Assembly (NCBI RefSeq): GCF_015548375.1
Contig: NZ_JADMWW010000006.1
Coordinates: 1-64,000 of the forward strand
Source: Collinsella aerofaciens
GTDB taxonomy: Bacteria > Actinomycetota > Coriobacteriia > Coriobacteriales > Coriobacteriaceae
DNA length: 64,000 bases
Reading direction: 5' to 3'
The notes under the pieces: model-generated
Databases searched by the model: none
Told to the model about the DNA's origin: nothing
What the model saw: the letters and a program-made list of their open reading frames with translations, nothing else
Translations under genes and position numbers: made by a program
In this document: positions 6,094 through 30,521 of the stretch, in pieces
Layout of the letters: each line of letters starts with the position of its first letter
Numbering within the stretch: position 1 is the stretch's first letter

Positions 6094-8091
6094 CTATTGC
6101 AGGTCCAGCTGGTCCAGATATTCCTTGCCGTGCTCGGAGATATGGCGCTTGCGGCCCGCTTCGTCGTTGCCCAGCAACAGGTTAAACATGGTCTCCATCT
6201 TGGTGACGTCCTCGGGCTCCACCTTGATCAGGCGACGCGTCTCGGGGTTCATGGTGGTGAGCCACATCATGTCCGGATCGTTCTCACCAAGACCCTTGGA
6301 GCGGTTGATGGAGCACTTTTGGTCGCCAATCTCCTTAAGGATGCCGTTCTTTTCGAGCTCGGTGTAGGCAAAGTAGGTCTTTTCTTTGCAGTTGATCTCG
6401 TAGAGCGGCGACTCGGCGATATACACGTAGCCCTCGTCGATAAGTGTGGGCACCAGGCGGTAGAGCATGGTGAGCACGAGCGTGCGGATGTGATAACCGT
6501 CGACATCGGCGTCCGTACAGATGATGACCTTGTTCCAGTTGAGGTTGTCCAGGTCGAAGGCGCCAAGGTTCTTGATGCGCTTGTCTTTGATCTCCACGCC
6601 ACAGCCCAGCACGCGCATGAGGTCCATGATGATGTCGGACTTAAAGATGCGCGGATAGTCCTCCTTTAGGCAGTTGAGGATCTTGCCGCGGACGGGCATG
6701 ACACCCTGGAACTCGGCATCGCGCGAGGTGCGAATGGCGCCTGCTGCCGAGTCGCCCTCTACGATGTAGATCTCGCGGCGGCTCTTGTCCTTGGAGCGGC
6801 AGTCGATGAACTTCTGCACGCGGTTGGCCATGTCGGTCTTCTGCTGTAGGTTGGTCTTGATGCTCTGACGCGTCTTCTCGGCGTTCTCGCGCGAACGCTT
6901 GTTGATGAGCACCTGCTCCATGATCTTATTGGCGGCGTCTTTGTTCTCGATCAGGTAGGTCGAGAGGCGCTCCTTAAAGAAGGCCGTCATGGCCTGCTGG
7001 ATAAAGCGGTTGTTGATGGCCTTCTTGGTCTGGTTCTCGTAGGACGTCTGGGTGGAGAAGCAGTTGGTCACCAGCACCAGGCAGTCCTGGACGTCTTGCC
7101 ACTTAATGCCGCTCTCGTTTTTGTTGTACTTGCCCTGTTGCTTGATGTAGGCATCGATGGCGCTGGTCAGAGCGCTGCGGGCCGCCTTCTCGGGCGAACC
7201 GCCGTTCTCGAGCCACGATGAGTTGTGGTAGTACTCCTGCATCATGAAGGTGCGCGAGAAGCACATGCACGCGGTGATCTTGACGTTGTAGTCGGGCAGG
7301 TCCTCGCGGTCGCGACCGCGACGGTCGGCCTCGATAAAGAAGGGCTCGGTAAGGTAGTCGGTACCGACCTTCTCGAGCACGTAGTCCTCGATGCCCTTGG
7401 GATAGCAAAAATCCTCTTCGGTAAACTCGCCATCGTCGCCCTCAATGCGCAGGCGGAAGGTCACGTTGGCGTTGACCACGGCCTGGCGGCGCATGGTCTC
7501 GCGATACCAATCGTGGGGGATGCTAATGGAGGTAAAAACCTCAAGATCGGGACGCCACTTGATGGTGGTGCCGGTGCGTTCCTCGTCGCTGGGCTCAATC
7601 TCGAGTGCCTTCTTTTTGGCGCCGACGACCTTGCCCTTTTTAAAGTGCAGGGAGTACTTGTTGCCGTCGCGCCAGACGGTGACGTCCATGTACTCGGAGG
7701 CGTACTGGGTCGCGCATGAACCCAGGCCGTTGGTACCGAGCGAGAAGTCGTAGTCGCCGCCCTGGTTGTTGTTGTACTTGCCGCCGGCGTAGAGCTCGCA
7801 AAAGACGAGCTCCCAGTTAAAGCGCTTCTCGGAAGGGTTCCAGTCGAGCGGGCAGCCGCGGCCGTTGTCCTCTACCTGAATGGAGCCATCGCGAAAGGCG
7901 GTAAGGGTGATGAGCTTGCCGTAGCCCTGGCGCGCCTCGTCAACGGCGTTGGACAGGATCTCGAAGGCGGCATGCGCGCAACCGTCGAGTCCGTCCGAGC
8001 CAAAGATAACGGCGGGGCGCAGACGTACGCGCTCCTCGTCCTTGAGCTGGCGGATACTGTCGTTACCATAGTTTGCGGTGTTTTTTGCCAT
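6094..8091 (-). CDS. type IIA topoisomerase subunit B (ParE/GyrB-like ATPase)
   Basis: 665 residues. The GHKL ATPase fold shows SNAVDEA (catalytic Glu52), EDNGRG (Asp75) and GTNGLGS. It is followed by the transducer domain and a TOPRIM domain with EGDSAAG and TDADVDGYHIR, the metal-binding acidic residues for DNA cleavage. The start RLRPAVIFGSDGLDGC differs from the RPGMYIG of standard GyrB, which marks the divergent clostridial/actinobacterial ParE-like branch. It is first in a two-gene operon with the subunit A gene. ATP hydrolysis by this subunit drives strand passage. The fully divergent promoter region lies at 8092 and beyond. Confidence 0.92.
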   Translation of the reverse strand: MAKNTANYGNDSIRQLKDEERVRLRPAVIFGSDGLDGCAHAAFEILSNAVDEARQGYGKLITLTAFRDGSIQVEDNGRGCPLDWNPSEKRFNWELVFCELYAGGKYNNNQGGDYDFSLGTNGLGSCATQYASEYMDVTVWRDGNKYSLHFKKGKVVGAKKKALEIEPSDEERTGTTIKWRPDLEVFTSISIPHDWYRETMRRQAVVNANVTFRLRIEGDDGEFTEEDFCYPKGIEDYVLEKVGTDYLTEPFFIEADRRGRDREDLPDYNVKITACMCFSRTFMMQEYYHNSSWLENGGSPEKAARSALTSAIDAYIKQQGKYNKNESGIKWQDVQDCLVLVTNCFSTQTSYENQTKKAINNRFIQQAMTAFFKERLSTYLIENKDAANKIMEQVLINKRSRENAEKTRQSIKTNLQQKTDMANRVQKFIDCRSKDKSRREIYIVEGDSAAGAIRTSRDAEFQGVMPVRGKILNCLKEDYPRIFKSDIIMDLMRVLGCGVEIKDKRIKNLGAFDLDNLNWNKVIICTDADVDGYHIRTLVLTMLYRLVPTLIDEGYVYIAESPLYEINCKEKTYFAYTELEKNGILKEIGDQKCSINRSKGLGENDPDMMWLTTMNPETRRLIKVEPEDVTKMETMFNLLLGNDEAGRKRHISEHGKEYLDQLDLQ

Positions 8092-8276
8092 ACTCGCTCT
8101 CTCGGTGCTCCTTTGCTGCGTTTAAGTCATATAGATAGTCAAGGTAGCATAGCCCAGCCCGTGGGCGATTCCACCCAACACGAAATCCATCGAACAATCG
8201 TTCGAGCTTAGGCTGAAAAGAGCTCACTCGCACAAAACCGAGTCGGTTTTGTCCGAGTAAGTTTGAAGACGGCCGA

Positions 8277-8393
8277 ATGTGTCTTGCTGCGTTTGCGGTT
8301 GGATACGTTGTCGAAGACGTGTCGTGCGGATTGTTGGCGAAAAGACGCCGTGCCAAGCTCGAGGCAGAACTCAACTCCTCTGACGACATCTAA
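8277..8393 (+). CDS. possible small protein (38 codons)
   Basis: In the 391-bp gap between the topoisomerase operon and the surface-protein gene, an ATG at 8277 opens a frame encoding MCLAAFAVGYVVEDV and a basic RRRAKLEAELN tail, ending right before a strong hairpin at 8399. The composition (short hydrophobic segment, then charged helix) is protein-like. The ribosome site is weak and the frame is also open for 20 codons upstream without an ATG. Nothing else was recognised in this gap. Treat as speculative. Confidence 0.28.
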   Translation: MCLAAFAVGYVVEDVSCGLLAKRRRAKLEAELNSSDDI

Positions 8394-8398
8394 TGCGT

Positions 8399-8434
8399 AA
8401 TGGGCTGGCTCTGGGTATCCAGAACCAGCCCATT
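8399..8434. terminator. bidirectional terminator-like hairpin
   Basis: AATGGGCTGG (8399-8408) pairs with CCAGCCCATT (8425-8434), and an inner TCTGG-gtat-CCAGA helix continues the stem. It lies about 50 bp beyond the stop of the leftward surface-protein gene and next to the stop of the small rightward frame. Short T/A runs flank it on both sides. Confidence 0.65.
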
Positions 8435-8482
8435 TGATGTTCGATGAGCCGAGTCGGCGTCTCTCGCAAAGGTAACTGAGAG

Positions 8483-11400
8483 CTAGTGAGGCTTATCAGA
8501 ATTGACCTCATTGGCGGTGTCTTTTTCGAGCGCCGTGCGGCGGGCACTGTAGGCGACGAGGCCGGCGCCTGCCGCGGTGAGTGCTGCTGCGGCTGCCGTA
8601 AGGGGAGCGTTGACGTCGCCCGTGCCCGCAAGCGCGCCCGCTTTTCCGGAGCGCTTGTTATTGCCGTGATCCTTGCCACTGCTGGAGCTGCTTCCGCCGG
8701 AGCCGCCGCCCTTGTCAGTACCGCCGCCACTCGAGCCGCCACCGCCGTCCGCCGTCATCGGTGCATCGTGAAGTCCTGTCGTATCCGCGCTGTCGTATAC
8801 GCCGACCTGAACTACTGAGCGCTCGCATGCCGCGTCGGGCACATGGAGCTCGTGCAGCACGGCACCCAGCGCCGAGTTTGCGCCCGGTCGAATTTCCTCG
8901 AGCGTTACGGGATCGAGCGCCACCAGATTACGCGCCTTCGCATACAGCGTTACGCGTTTGCCCACTTCGTCGCTCCAACTCTCGGGGATAGCGAAGCTCA
9001 TGCGGAACTGTGCCGTGCAACCCGGTGCCAGCACGGCGTTGCCACTGTCGGCTACCAGCGGGTGCGTTGCAAAAGGTGTGCCCAGCGTTTCGAGCGCGTA
9101 CTTCACGTGTGCCATGTCGTTGACCGAAGCGTCCTCGGCAAGCTCTGGATCGTAGATCGATGCCATGCGTGTGTTCGCTCCGAACCCGATGGATGCGCTG
9201 GAGAACGGCTGGCTGGAGCCCTCTCGGTACAGATCGATTGTGCCGGCGGTCAGCAAGGTGTTGCCGTCGTTTCGCACCGTGACCATGAAGGATTCGCCTG
9301 CTGCTCCGGGCACCACCGCGCCCGAGGTAGCGACTGCGCCCGTCGGAGTGGCACACGCCACCAAGGGCACTTCGATGCCGTGTAGTTCTGCCTCGCTCTT
9401 CTCCGCGCTCACAATGTGCGTGGCGAGCGCGGAGAGCATGCTCCCCGACGTCAAAAATGTCGTTATCTGATCGACGGGATGGTCCAGCTCGCACATCACG
9501 AACGGCTCCGTAAACAGATCGCCTGCCAAGGTGCTGGCGAAGATGCGGAAGTGCTTGCCCATCACTGCTACCGGGTTGCCTTCTTCGTCGTAGGTTTGCC
9601 CCACCTTGCCATCGGTGTTCTCTACATAGAGCACGCACCTGCCGTTGTTGCTTACGCTAAACGATGCCGGGCCACAGCCTGCGGCACCCACGGGCTGCGT
9701 TGCAAATGCCGATGCGCCTCGCGTCCAAGTAATATGCTGCAGTTGCTCGTTGACGGTAGCCAAAAAGCCCGTGTGCTGCGGCCACGGCACCGCGTGGGGT
9801 ACTGTGGCATCTGGCGACATAACGCCCCAGCTCGCAATGGACTGGCCGATCACGGCGTACGATGCACAGCCACAACCGCCTGCGGTCTCGTATGCAATGG
9901 GCACCACCATTTTGCCGTTGATATTCTCGGGAGCGCCGAGCTCGATGCTCGACGGTGCCTGCGGAAAGCGGAGGACCTGACGGAACGTGAGACTGTCGCC
10001 CGAAACGTCCGACCACAGGGTAAAGCACTCCAGCGCAACCTCAGCCTCGCTGCCGAGCGCCTTTTCCGCGGTGGTTCCGCGGCGGTGGAGGTAGGCACCC
10101 GACAGGCGCCCGTCGACCAGCGTCTTGCCCACCGTGATACGCGGGCACTGCAGACAATGGTAGCCATCCTCTTGTAGGCGGCCGCGCGAGATGCTGCGCC
10201 ATGACGTGTGCGATACCACGCGGGTCTCGTCATTACTTATGCGCAGACGCACAACGGACAGTATGCCGGCTGTGCTTGCCGTATCGAAAAGGGTGTCGTC
10301 GCCGTCACGCCGCTCGCCCGAGACCAGCAACACGTAGGCGTCCTGGTTTCCTCTTCCGTCCGTATATTCCACCACGTCGAAGTCGTAATCGTATATGCCG
10401 TCGCGTTCCACGTCGCCCTCACCAAACCCAAGGGGAAAGTCCACGGGCATGGGGGCGGACCACGTGCCGTTTGCCTTTGTGTGCACCACCAGACGCGAGC
10501 GGCCATTGTCGCCGTAGCGCACCGAGGCGATGCGGAACAGGCATTCTACGCCGGCGATAATCGTCAGCTTCATGTGGGCTTCGCTGAGCACGCCAGTAAA
10601 CAGCACGTTGTCGCTCGAGGGCTTGATGCCGCCACGCTCGTCCTCCGATACACCAGCAGAATTGGCGTTGGGGTCCGCAACGGCGTCCTTCGTCTGCCCG
10701 ATATGGGTGTACGCATACATCGGCGCGGCGTTTTCGTCGTTCTCTATCAGTGCGTGGACGAAATGCTCGATCTGTCCCGTGTCGTCGCTCTCCGCATCCG
10801 CCTCGAGCTCAATGCGCGTGACCGACCGGTCCCAATCGCGTACGGTAGGCTCGACATTCCTTGCAGTGGCCTTAACCTCAGCGCGTGCGAGTAGCTCGGC
10901 GTTGGTGACGATGGTGGCCGATGCGATAAATTGCGGCACGCCGCCCGCCTCGATGTTGCCGGGCATGCCGAAGCGGGCATCCAACGTGTAAGGCGTATCT
11001 CCACCCAATGCGAGCTCAGAGCGCTGGAGCACATACTGGTTGCCATTGTTCACCGACATATTCCACGAATCGAGGAGTGTGGGCCACGACCCCGACCAAG
11101 CCTTGGTGGTCCACTTGAACATTACGAACTGGAGTATCACATCGACATCGACGTCTGCACCCACGCGCAGCCGCGGAAGCTGGTGCCCGTCCGCCTTCTC
11201 GTACCCAATGAACAGGGTGAGGGATGCGGCGCCACGCACGGCAGACGAAGCGACGCCTGCAACGCCGGCGCCAAAGGTGACGGCAAGCCCGATCTGGATA
11301 GTGAATGAGCCCGACGTGTTGGAATAGTCGAGCGAAATGTTCTTGAAAAACGCCGCGCCGCCGCCGTGCGTGTGGGCACCCACGGCGAGCGCCAGTTTTG

Positions 11401-28074: not shown

Positions 28075-29028
28075 ATGATCCTTTCGCTGGCCCCTATGGA
28101 GGGGATTACCGGGCATGTGTTCCGTCGCGTGCATGCGGAGTGCTTCGGTGCGCTCGATTGCTATTACACGCCGTTTTTGCCGCCGCCGCGGGTGGGAAAC
28201 CGCTTTGGCGGCAAGGCGTTTAAGGAGATCGATCCTGCCAATAACCAGGGGCTCAACGTGGTGCCTCAGCTGATGTCCAAGAACGCGGACGAGTTTGTGT
28301 GGGCGGCACAGGTGCTCGCCGACATGGGCTACCGCGAGGTCAATCTCAACTTGGGTTGCCCTTCGGGAACGGTTGTCGCCAAGGGCAAGGGCTCGGGTTT
28401 CTTGCGCAATCTCGACGAGCTCGAGGCGTTCTTAAGCGATGTGTGCGAGCGGTCGCCGTTGCCGGTGTCGGTAAAGACCAGGCTGGGGCTGGAGAATGAC
28501 GACGAATACGAGCGCGTGCTCGATCTGTATTGCCGCATGCCGTTGGCAGAGCTGATCGTGCATCCGCGCGTACAGAAGGACCGCTATACGGGCTTGCCGC
28601 GCAAAGAGTTTTATGGCGAGACGCTGGAGCGTGCGCCGTTCCCCGTGGCCTATAACGGTGACATTTTTGATCTTGAGGATATGGACGCGCTGGTGGAGGC
28701 CTATCCCGGCACGCGCCATGTGATGTTGGGGCGTGGCCTGCTCGCGAACCCCGCTCTGGCTCGCATGGTCAAGGGCGGCCCTGCTGCAACGGCTGCTGAG
28801 CTGCAGCGCTTCCACGACACGCTGTTTGCGGCATATGCAGAAGAGATTGGCGGCAATGCGGTCTTCCGCATGAAGGAGTGGTGGTTCTACGCCAAGTGCG
28901 CTTTCGCTGATCCCGCTACCGTCCACAAGATCGTACGCAAGACCAAAAAGGTCGACGAATACCGCGCTGCCGTCGAGCGCGTCTTTCGTGAACAGCCGCT
29001 TGCACCCACAGCTCGCTTCCACGGCTAA
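28075..29028 (+). CDS. dus: tRNA-dihydrouridine synthase
   Basis: 317 residues from ATG 28075. TIM-barrel flavoprotein with LAPMEGITGHVFRR at the FMN site, catalytic Cys95 in NLNLGCPSGTVVAKGKGSG, and HPRVQKDRYTG with YNGDIF for FMN phosphate contacts, followed by the helical tRNA-binding tail. It reduces uridines in the D-loop of tRNA with NADPH. Which position it modifies cannot be assigned. Single-gene unit between palindromic elements. Confidence 0.93.
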   Translation: MILSLAPMEGITGHVFRRVHAECFGALDCYYTPFLPPPRVGNRFGGKAFKEIDPANNQGLNVVPQLMSKNADEFVWAAQVLADMGYREVNLNLGCPSGTVVAKGKGSGFLRNLDELEAFLSDVCERSPLPVSVKTRLGLENDDEYERVLDLYCRMPLAELIVHPRVQKDRYTGLPRKEFYGETLERAPFPVAYNGDIFDLEDMDALVEAYPGTRHVMLGRGLLANPALARMVKGGPAATAAELQRFHDTLFAAYAEEIGGNAVFRMKEWWFYAKCAFADPATVHKIVRKTKKVDEYRAAVERVFREQPLAPTARFHG

Positions 29029-29093: not shown

Positions 29094-29158
29094 AAACATG
29101 TACACCAGCATCCAAAGATGTCGAAAAATGTCGACTTTGGATGCTGGTGTACATGTTT
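29094..29158. repeat. stem-loop element, copy A
   Basis: Perfect 24-bp arms (AAACATGTACACCAGC... and complement) around a 17-nt loop ATGTCGAAAAATGTCGA. The same unit recurs at 30168-30233 in the same orientation. The loop heptamer ATGTCGA also forms the palindrome before the antitoxin gene at 29462. Confidence 0.9.
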
Positions 29159-29179
29159 GGGTCCGACGGGGGAGCGGGC

Positions 29180-29446
29180 CTAGGCAATCAGTGCATCAAG
29201 TGTAATGAGCTCTCTGAGCCGCTCCGTGCGTGTTTGCCCATGGCGTTTGGCTTTTTCGTCAAACGCCTCAAGAATCGATTCGCCCACACGTGCTGATATA
29301 ACGACGCTCGGCTCATCGGAGGTTGGTGGCCTTCCCAACTTGATGGTGTGACCTTTCGGCCACTCATCTTTTTCGTAGGCTTCCGCGGCTTTCTTCAACT
29401 CTCCGGGAGCAAACCCCATCATCTTTTCGAGCTGCTTAGCATCCAT
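29180..29446 (-). CDS. ribbon-helix-helix (CopG/BrnA-like) antitoxin-type protein, orphan
   Basis: 88 residues from ATG 29446 with AGGAGG four bases upstream; the frame is open further up but crosses the operator. A helical head (MDAKQLEKMMGFAPGELKKA) is followed by a KLGRPP strand and a C-terminal RHH unit, SVVISARVGESILEAFDEKA then RHGQTRTERLREL. RHH antitoxins repress their own operon. No toxin gene is on either side, so it is an orphan or its partner was lost. It sits between the two copies of the stem-loop element, which share the heptamer ATGTCGA with its probable operator. Confidence 0.72.
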   Translation of the reverse strand: MDAKQLEKMMGFAPGELKKAAEAYEKDEWPKGHTIKLGRPPTSDEPSVVISARVGESILEAFDEKAKRHGQTRTERLRELITLDALIA

Positions 29447-29461
29447 GGCGCCTCCTATCGA

Positions 29462-29476
29462 TCGACATAATGTCGA
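29462..29476 (-). promoter_or_regulatory. palindromic operator of the RHH gene
   Basis: TCGACATAATGTCGA, a 15-bp palindrome, lies 16 bp before the start codon of the leftward RHH gene. Just upstream on that strand are AT-rich promoter-like sequences including TTGTATACAA. Confidence 0.6.
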
Positions 29477-29722
29477 GCGCCGGTTCTCGGATTCTCTTTT
29501 TGTATACAATTTTGTAGACAAAAATACAAGCAGTTCATCGGGCTAATTAGCTTGTTTTGACCTGCCTGTTCGATAGGAAATGAGCATTGACGGCTTCGAT
29601 ACTCCTTTGCTTTTTAGCTTGGAATTTGGATGCTCATTGAACTTCCGGAGGGGAGCCCTTTATTAAGCTATTGAGATTCTGGGCAGGAGCTCTCACTGGT
29701 CTTCGGTAATGGGGCCAGCTTA

Positions 29723-29747
29723 ATTCGCGACACAGTGTGTCGCGAAT
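29723..29747. repeat. 25-bp palindrome ATTCGCGACACA-G-TGTGTCGCGAAT
   Basis: Perfect 12-bp arms and a single central base. No T-run. Could be an operator or recombination site; no neighbouring gene explains it. Confidence 0.75.
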
Positions 29748-29848
29748 GGGAGTAGTCGTTAGGTGTCCTTCATCAATGGCTACTCATATAAGAACGTTCA
29801 AGTGTCGGATTTTGTCATTTAGTGTCGCTCTCAGCGACTATTCTGGAG

Positions 29849-30072
29849 GGTCAAAAAAGGGCAAATATGAGTACTGTTGCCATTATGGTTGCATTTATTT
29901 GCTATAAATTGTAGCTCCTGATGAGATTTGTTCCCATTAAGAGCTACTTTTATTGAACATATGAGGAGAAATAACGTCGTCTGCGGACGAGTGGAACGTT
30001 GAATAGTTCCTGAAGTGATCAAAATCGCTGCTACTAAACAGGTAGCAGTACTCATATTTGCCCTTTTTGACC
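29849..30072. repeat. 27-28-bp inverted repeat flanking ~170 bp
   Basis: The left arm (29849-29876) and right arm (30046-30072) are reverse complements except for one extra A. The segment between them could be inverted by a recombinase, or the arms may be an inverted duplication of a coding scrap (KKGKYEYC is encoded in both). Confidence 0.75.
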
Positions 30073-30167
30073 ACAGCCCTCTCGGAAACCTTTCCAGAGG
30101 CGTCAAACAGCCATAATCCAAAGGTCTCCTCAAACAATTAGCCGGCCAAGAGCGTCCATGACTACCA

Positions 30168-30233
30168 AAAAGCTGTACGCCAGCATCCAAAGATGTCGAA
30201 AAATGTCGACTTTGGATGCTGGTGTACATGTTT
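30168..30233. repeat. stem-loop element, copy B
   Basis: Identical to copy A at 29094 from CCAGCATCC through the loop to the end of the right arm and GGGTC. The left arm has point changes (AGCTGTACG for ACATGTACA) that are not compensated on the right. Confidence 0.88.
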
Positions 30234-30275: not shown

Positions 30276-30521
30276 CTAGAGCAGGTTTTCCTGCACCCAC
30301 GCGATGATGTCGCTCGATTCGTAGAGTGGTTTGCCGTCGATGAACAGGCAGGGAACCTGGCGTTTTCCGCCGACGGCGATGAGTGTCTGTTCGGCATCGG
30401 AATCGGTCGAGATATTGCGCTCGGGAATGGTCACGCCGTTATCGGCCAAAAAGTGCTTGACCTTTAAGCAATACGGGCAGCCGGTCATAACGTACAGCGC
30501 GAGCTCGTGATTAGTAGCCAT
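30276..30521 (-). CDS. glutaredoxin
   Basis: 81 residues. Thioredoxin-fold protein with redox motif CPYC (Cys15, Cys18), the cis-proline segment RQVPCLFIDG and the C-terminal ESSDIIAWVQE. It reduces protein or low-molecular disulfides in the cytoplasm and could equally serve a NrdH- or mycoredoxin-like role, because glutathione is often absent in this lineage. Single-gene unit, 52 bp after the regulator gene at 30574 on the same strand. Confidence 0.9.
   Translation of the reverse strand: MATNHELALYVMTGCPYCLKVKHFLADNGVTIPERNISTDSDAEQTLIAVGGKRQVPCLFIDGKPLYESSDIIAWVQENLL

Follow-up and report, generated by a model that had tools for sequence, protein, structure and literature searches.

A palindromic repeat borders variable gene islands in the Collinsella aerofaciens group

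P1, a 65-bp hairpin of the common human gut commensal Collinsella aerofaciens, borders small loci at which strains appear to swap gene islands, and it may serve as a portable homology anchor for these islands, a reading to which we give a probability of roughly one half. Comparison among strains revealed a series of alleles with several different cargos, apparently recent exchange of tracts, and P1 at the points where synteny breaks. P1 probably anchors recombination at exchange loci resembling 'minimal mobile elements'. If it does, a search of a few fixed sites marked by the hairpin could reveal the islands particular to each strain, and one could test directly whether modules can be exchanged under the guidance of a palindrome alone.

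The analysed stretch of DNA (64,000 nucleotides, contig NZ_JADMWW010000006.1; hereafter the window) carries two P1 copies. The left copy (29094-29158, plus strand) has perfect 24-bp stem arms and a 17-nt loop, and the right copy (30169-30233, plus strand) forms 21 of 24 pairs, with mismatches near the stem base. Together they are direct repeats with 92% identity over 83 nt and a start-to-start distance of 1075. Folded as single-stranded DNA, they reached -30.0 kcal/mol (left, z -11.0) and -24.3 kcal/mol (right, z -8.9), and no shuffled sequence folded as well as either. A sequence-only reading of this region had described two stem-loops of the same orientation around an orphan ribbon-helix-helix (RHH) gene and an AT-richer region; coordinates, repeat orientation and the GC content of the enclosed interval (48%) agree with that description. 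The heptamer ATGTCGA indeed starts twice in each loop, at 29118 and 29128 on the left and at 30193 and 30203 on the right. In the predicted fold, most of the 17-nt 'loop' is taken up by an extra stem of 5 bp (GTCGA/TCGAC) that follows a 3-nt bulge, and part of the second heptamer is therefore paired. The conserved flanks are dus, encoding a tRNA dihydrouridine synthase (28075-29028, plus strand), and a glutaredoxin-like gene, grx (30276-30521, minus strand). Directly after dus lies P2 (29030-29085), a second palindrome that is unrelated to P1 and is present also in alleles without P1.

P1 is best read as a lineage-restricted palindromic repeat of the C. aerofaciens group. Of 43 Collinsella genomes, 22 gave matches, and 8 of these 22 have no RHH gene; the sample comprised one genome per species, and contig breaks close to P1 cut several of the loci short. 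A profile search recovered 87 copies in the fetched loci, and these occupy four chromosomal sites whose positions are nearly fixed across species: dus-grx (locus A), the interval separating a tRNA from the gene of a TRIC-type membrane protein (locus B), the interval between divergent PHP and larC-like genes (locus C) and the region upstream of pgsA (locus D). The neighbouring genes are divergent at two loci and convergent at dus-grx. With a covariance model we obtained 12 both-strand matches in the window's own genome, corresponding to about 6 copies; the 21 remaining members of the genus gave none. The model also detected relatives of the hairpin in another genus of the same family, in two genomes (L388, L389), where the best match in each has the outer arms of P1 (AAACRTGTAC/GTACAYGTTT) and a different inner stem. 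The single weak match in a third genome, from yet another genus, looks like a chance hairpin, and 400 kb of genome G058, searched for the P1 relatives of another genus, held no copy. An apparent third P1 in one genome (G005) proved to be an assembly-gap artefact with runs of N. There was no phage match to P1, the sole match in the plasmid collection was a Collinsella record of 900 kb, and of six pattern matches in viral contigs, four were copies of a single coding-like sequence; neither these nor the remaining two are P1-type hairpins. We found no description of P1 in the literature searched, which was covered in part.

The allele series is clearest at locus A. Four alleles (L259, L262, L263, L272) have no P1, and P2 runs almost straight into the grx end; others (L059/L260 and L062/L269) have one P1 and no cargo. 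The usual state is two P1 copies around differing cargo, either RHH modules of 0.5-5 kb or, in L054, a Macro/radical-SAM island, while L051 carries a Macro/radical-SAM island followed by an RHH module between two P1 copies. The RHH island of L057/G020 has the left P1 alone, and two hairpins are therefore not essential. The suggestion that the hairpins are termini of a mobile unit marked by the RHH protein thus holds in outline for the variable unit between them, and relatives that lack the segment and retain one copy were found as anticipated (L059, L062), beside others with none. The 'marked by RHH' part is unsupported, since other cargo occupies the space between the same hairpins. The island of the window itself is best explained as a decayed toxin-antitoxin-like module, in which the antitoxin was kept, the toxin deleted, and the large nuclease-like gene of other strains is missing.

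Several comparisons point to exchange of whole tracts. The window and L257 share 99.6-100% identity across the tract that runs from P2 to the grx end, hairpins included (the right hairpin of L257 reads 81% because of an assembly gap there), versus 94.8% in the adjoining 3' half of dus and 92.2% in grx. The nearest relative of the window, 99% identical in dus and the neighbouring HTH gene, lacks the entire island. L047 and L049 are 100% identical from P2 through the RHH gene and divergent beyond it, and L302 and L270 have an identical right hairpin although both its flanks differ. Such mosaics suggest recombination at P1-bordered islands. On a tree of dus and the HTH gene from 17 strains, most forks of which are weakly supported, as recombining DNA gives, we counted 6 changes of cargo state versus 6.06 with shuffled labels; by this comparison, the turnover of cargo shows no correlation with the flanking-gene tree. 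We detected no homogenisation between the hairpins of a strain: left and right copies differed by 7.3 positions within and 7.6 between strains (p 0.22). Hairpins of one strain are hence no closer than those of different strains, and recent left-right exchange is not demonstrated.

The other loci vary in related ways. At locus B, 9 genomes have a P1-cargo-P1 arrangement with the cargo, a 335-aa nuclease-like protein with a sub-threshold REase_MTES_1575 match, found in both orientations, and 4 genomes have one P1 and no cargo. Among the 9 other genomes examined there, 8 are without P1 and have a common junction, GGTTCC joined to ATGTTTGG, with one-base variants before the join, while the region read from the ninth (G032) stopped short of it. 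This empty junction contains no target-site duplication, and because all empty alleles have the same one, a single gain or loss suffices. At locus C, P1 is nearly constant and the intergenic flanks occur in several unalignable versions; at locus D it persists beside at least five different neighbours. Both are places where P1 borders variable flanks with no P1-P1 pair.

We infer that strains would take up islands as DNA from one another and that general recombination would swap them, with the flanking genes, P1 and P2 providing the homology. Recombination through P1/P2 would make P1 a portable homology anchor. A search of the islands for a recombinase found none. The flanking genes alone could supply all the homology that island exchange needs.

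This arrangement resembles the minimal mobile elements of Neisseria, in which strains carry different whole-gene cassettes, incorporated by homologous recombination, between the same two conserved genes (PMC3082526). Likewise, the dus-grx interval is empty in some strains and in others contains an RHH module or a Macro/radical-SAM island. Recombination in the flanks would fit the mosaic identity and the independence of cargo from the flank tree, both known from sequence comparison. In contrast to those elements, P1 is a dedicated palindrome at the cassette ends that recurs at several loci. The P1 system may thus work like a 'minimal mobile element with a palindromic border'. From REP sequences, MITEs and attC sites alike, P1 departs in at least one tested feature.

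Among the alternatives, a selfish palindrome is the most durable, though we consider it rather unlikely: P1 would be a REP- or MITE-like repeat, moved in trans by a transposase and piling up at permissive intergenic hotspots, with the islands independent of it. REP and BIME sequences are short intergenic palindromes with preserved pairing, usually present in more than 100 copies, with a GT(A/G)G head and a RAYT gene flanked by the repeat (PMC2817692). P1 is also short, intergenic, palindromic and preserved in its pairing, but the window's genome has no more than about 6 copies of it, its alignment shows no GT(A/G)G head, its stem is longer and no RAYT gene flanks it. With MITEs and Correia-type repeats it shares small size, lack of coding capacity, inverted ends and presence or absence at fixed sites; unlike them, it has no target-site duplication at TRIC-tRNA and is almost confined to its four loci. 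Near-precise presence or absence at TRIC-tRNA would suit a mobile palindrome, as would the hairpins of the other genus with the same outer arms and Y1 transposase-type genes in 36 of 42 genomes. However, no P1- or P2-like hairpin was seen near 26 such genes, and a Y1/RAYT transposase was rejected as the mover of P1 for want of association at these loci. The near fixation of P1 sites across species and the single junction of all empty TRIC-tRNA alleles, for which one gain or loss is enough, likewise count against this reading.

That P1 is instead a regulatory hairpin of RNA or DNA (a terminator, a processing site or a protein-binding site) at each locus, unrelated to exchange, seems improbable. 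Stem pairing is evidently maintained: across 60 distinct copies 91% of pairs are kept, and doubly changed cells number 73 versus 31 in shuffles, with 0 of 500 shuffles as high. Loci without cargo also retain P1, which speaks for this role. Gene conversion from arm to arm could equally maintain the pairing, however, so its conservation does not prove a role as RNA or single strand. Neither copy in the window was among the terminator-like sites called by a GC-rich stem and a T run, no Rfam family reached its gathering score for P1 (sub-threshold matches were to eukaryotic miRNA models only), and the gene setting, divergent at two loci and convergent at dus-grx, also counts against this role.

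We hold it still more doubtful that P1, folded as a single strand, is where a site-specific cassette system of the integron-like or Xer-like kind recombines. Integron attC sites are imperfect hairpins between modules and carry R''/R' boxes (RYYYAAC and GTTRRRY). P1 too is an imperfect hairpin between modules; arrays of 0, 1 or 2 modules parted by hairpins (L051, L054), the two orientations of the TRIC-tRNA cargo and compensatory changes that keep the pairing would all suit such a system. Yet the boxes are present in 0 of 66 P1 copies, the islands contain neither an integron integrase nor any other recombinase, and the exchange tracts, far larger than one cassette, cover the island from end to end together with P2, a pattern expected of general recombination. 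A related proposal is a long shot: P1 would be the hairpin recognised by a site-specific cassette system of Coriobacteriaceae so far undescribed, and this system would insert, invert and excise small modules of the toxin-antitoxin, nuclease and ADP-ribose (Macro)/radical-SAM kinds at a small number of fixed docks on the chromosome.

Least credible, to the point of near dismissal, is the idea put forward in the sequence-only reading that P1 serves the enclosed RHH protein as a decoy or nucleation site. It drew on the heptamer common to the P1 loop and the proposed operator TCGACATAATGTCGA (29462-29476), a palindrome carrying ATGTCGA on both strands, and all 14 genomes with an RHH orthologue have it at locus A, adjoining a P1. 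Against it, RHH genes occur in 14 and P1 in 22 of the 43 genomes, a survey that rules out co-occurrence; the P1 genomes lacking RHH largely supply the case, an element without the gene, that tells against such a role, and the TRIC-tRNA hairpins keep the same loop with no RHH gene nearby. The heptamer is enriched across the whole window (31 occurrences versus 9 expected), so its presence in both loop and operator is weaker evidence than it first appeared. Nor is the operator conserved: TCGACATAATGTCGA occupies the position at which longer alleles have the end of the toxin gene. Of the 10 alleles lacking the toxin, 4 have the palindrome in perfect form, and none of the four with toxin sequence upstream has it. 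A different inverted repeat, TTTTTGTATACA...TGTAGACAAAAA (29497-29524), is found upstream of RHH in 14 of 14 alleles and is more likely the candidate promoter/operator region. P1 therefore appears unrelated to the RHH gene that it encloses, and the heptamer match is best read as coincidence.

The RHH gene itself (29180-29446, minus strand) encodes a CopG/RHH_1 domain (Pfam E 3e-5, a match that passes the gathering cut-off) and most likely is the surviving antitoxin of a pair that lost its toxin gene. The window has no adjacent toxin gene. On the minus strand of the longer alleles L050, L051 and L057, a protein of about 430 aa is followed by a 100-aa toxin-like ORF and then by RHH. A homologue of this ORF (39% identity over 70 residues) directly precedes a CopG RHH gene on the Bifidobacterium plasmid pBBKW-2, a pair of the same order, although the antitoxins are weakly alike (34% over 35 residues) and the window allele, unlike the plasmid, has no toxin gene. 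The occurrence of the pair in both settings suggests that the window retains an antitoxin left behind after deletion of its partner. The AlphaFold model of the toxin-like ORF was too poor to use (pLDDT 46). The protein of about 430 aa, encoded between RHH and grx, is possibly a defence gene of the island; it weakly matches the candidate defence family PDC-S02 and a protein from Collinsella that carries the annotation PDDEXK nuclease.

Other mobile sequences were observed in and around the islands. Genes with a Y1-transposase domain (RAYT-like; L188, L190 and orthologues) are present in most Collinsella genomes, with no P1- or P2-type hairpins nearby. A MITE-like element of about 224 bp with imperfect 47-nt terminal inverted repeats lies inside the window island (29849-30072) and, among the matches listed in the fetched sequences, was found at this locus only. 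In L053, an insertion-sequence-like element (7137-8641) splits the right P1; CCAAAGATG stands on either side of the element and looks like a target duplication of 9 bp. P2 (TAGTCATCGGGGACGTTCTTTAACGACTAGTCATTTAAGAACGTCCCCGATGACTA) has whole or half copies at about two dozen places in the window's genome, and an IS110-family element sits at the same position of its stem in at least four places (L050:7362 and 12307, L213:1104, L268:6994). Some insertion sequences prefer palindromes as targets, and the IS110-family insertions in P2 are in line with that.
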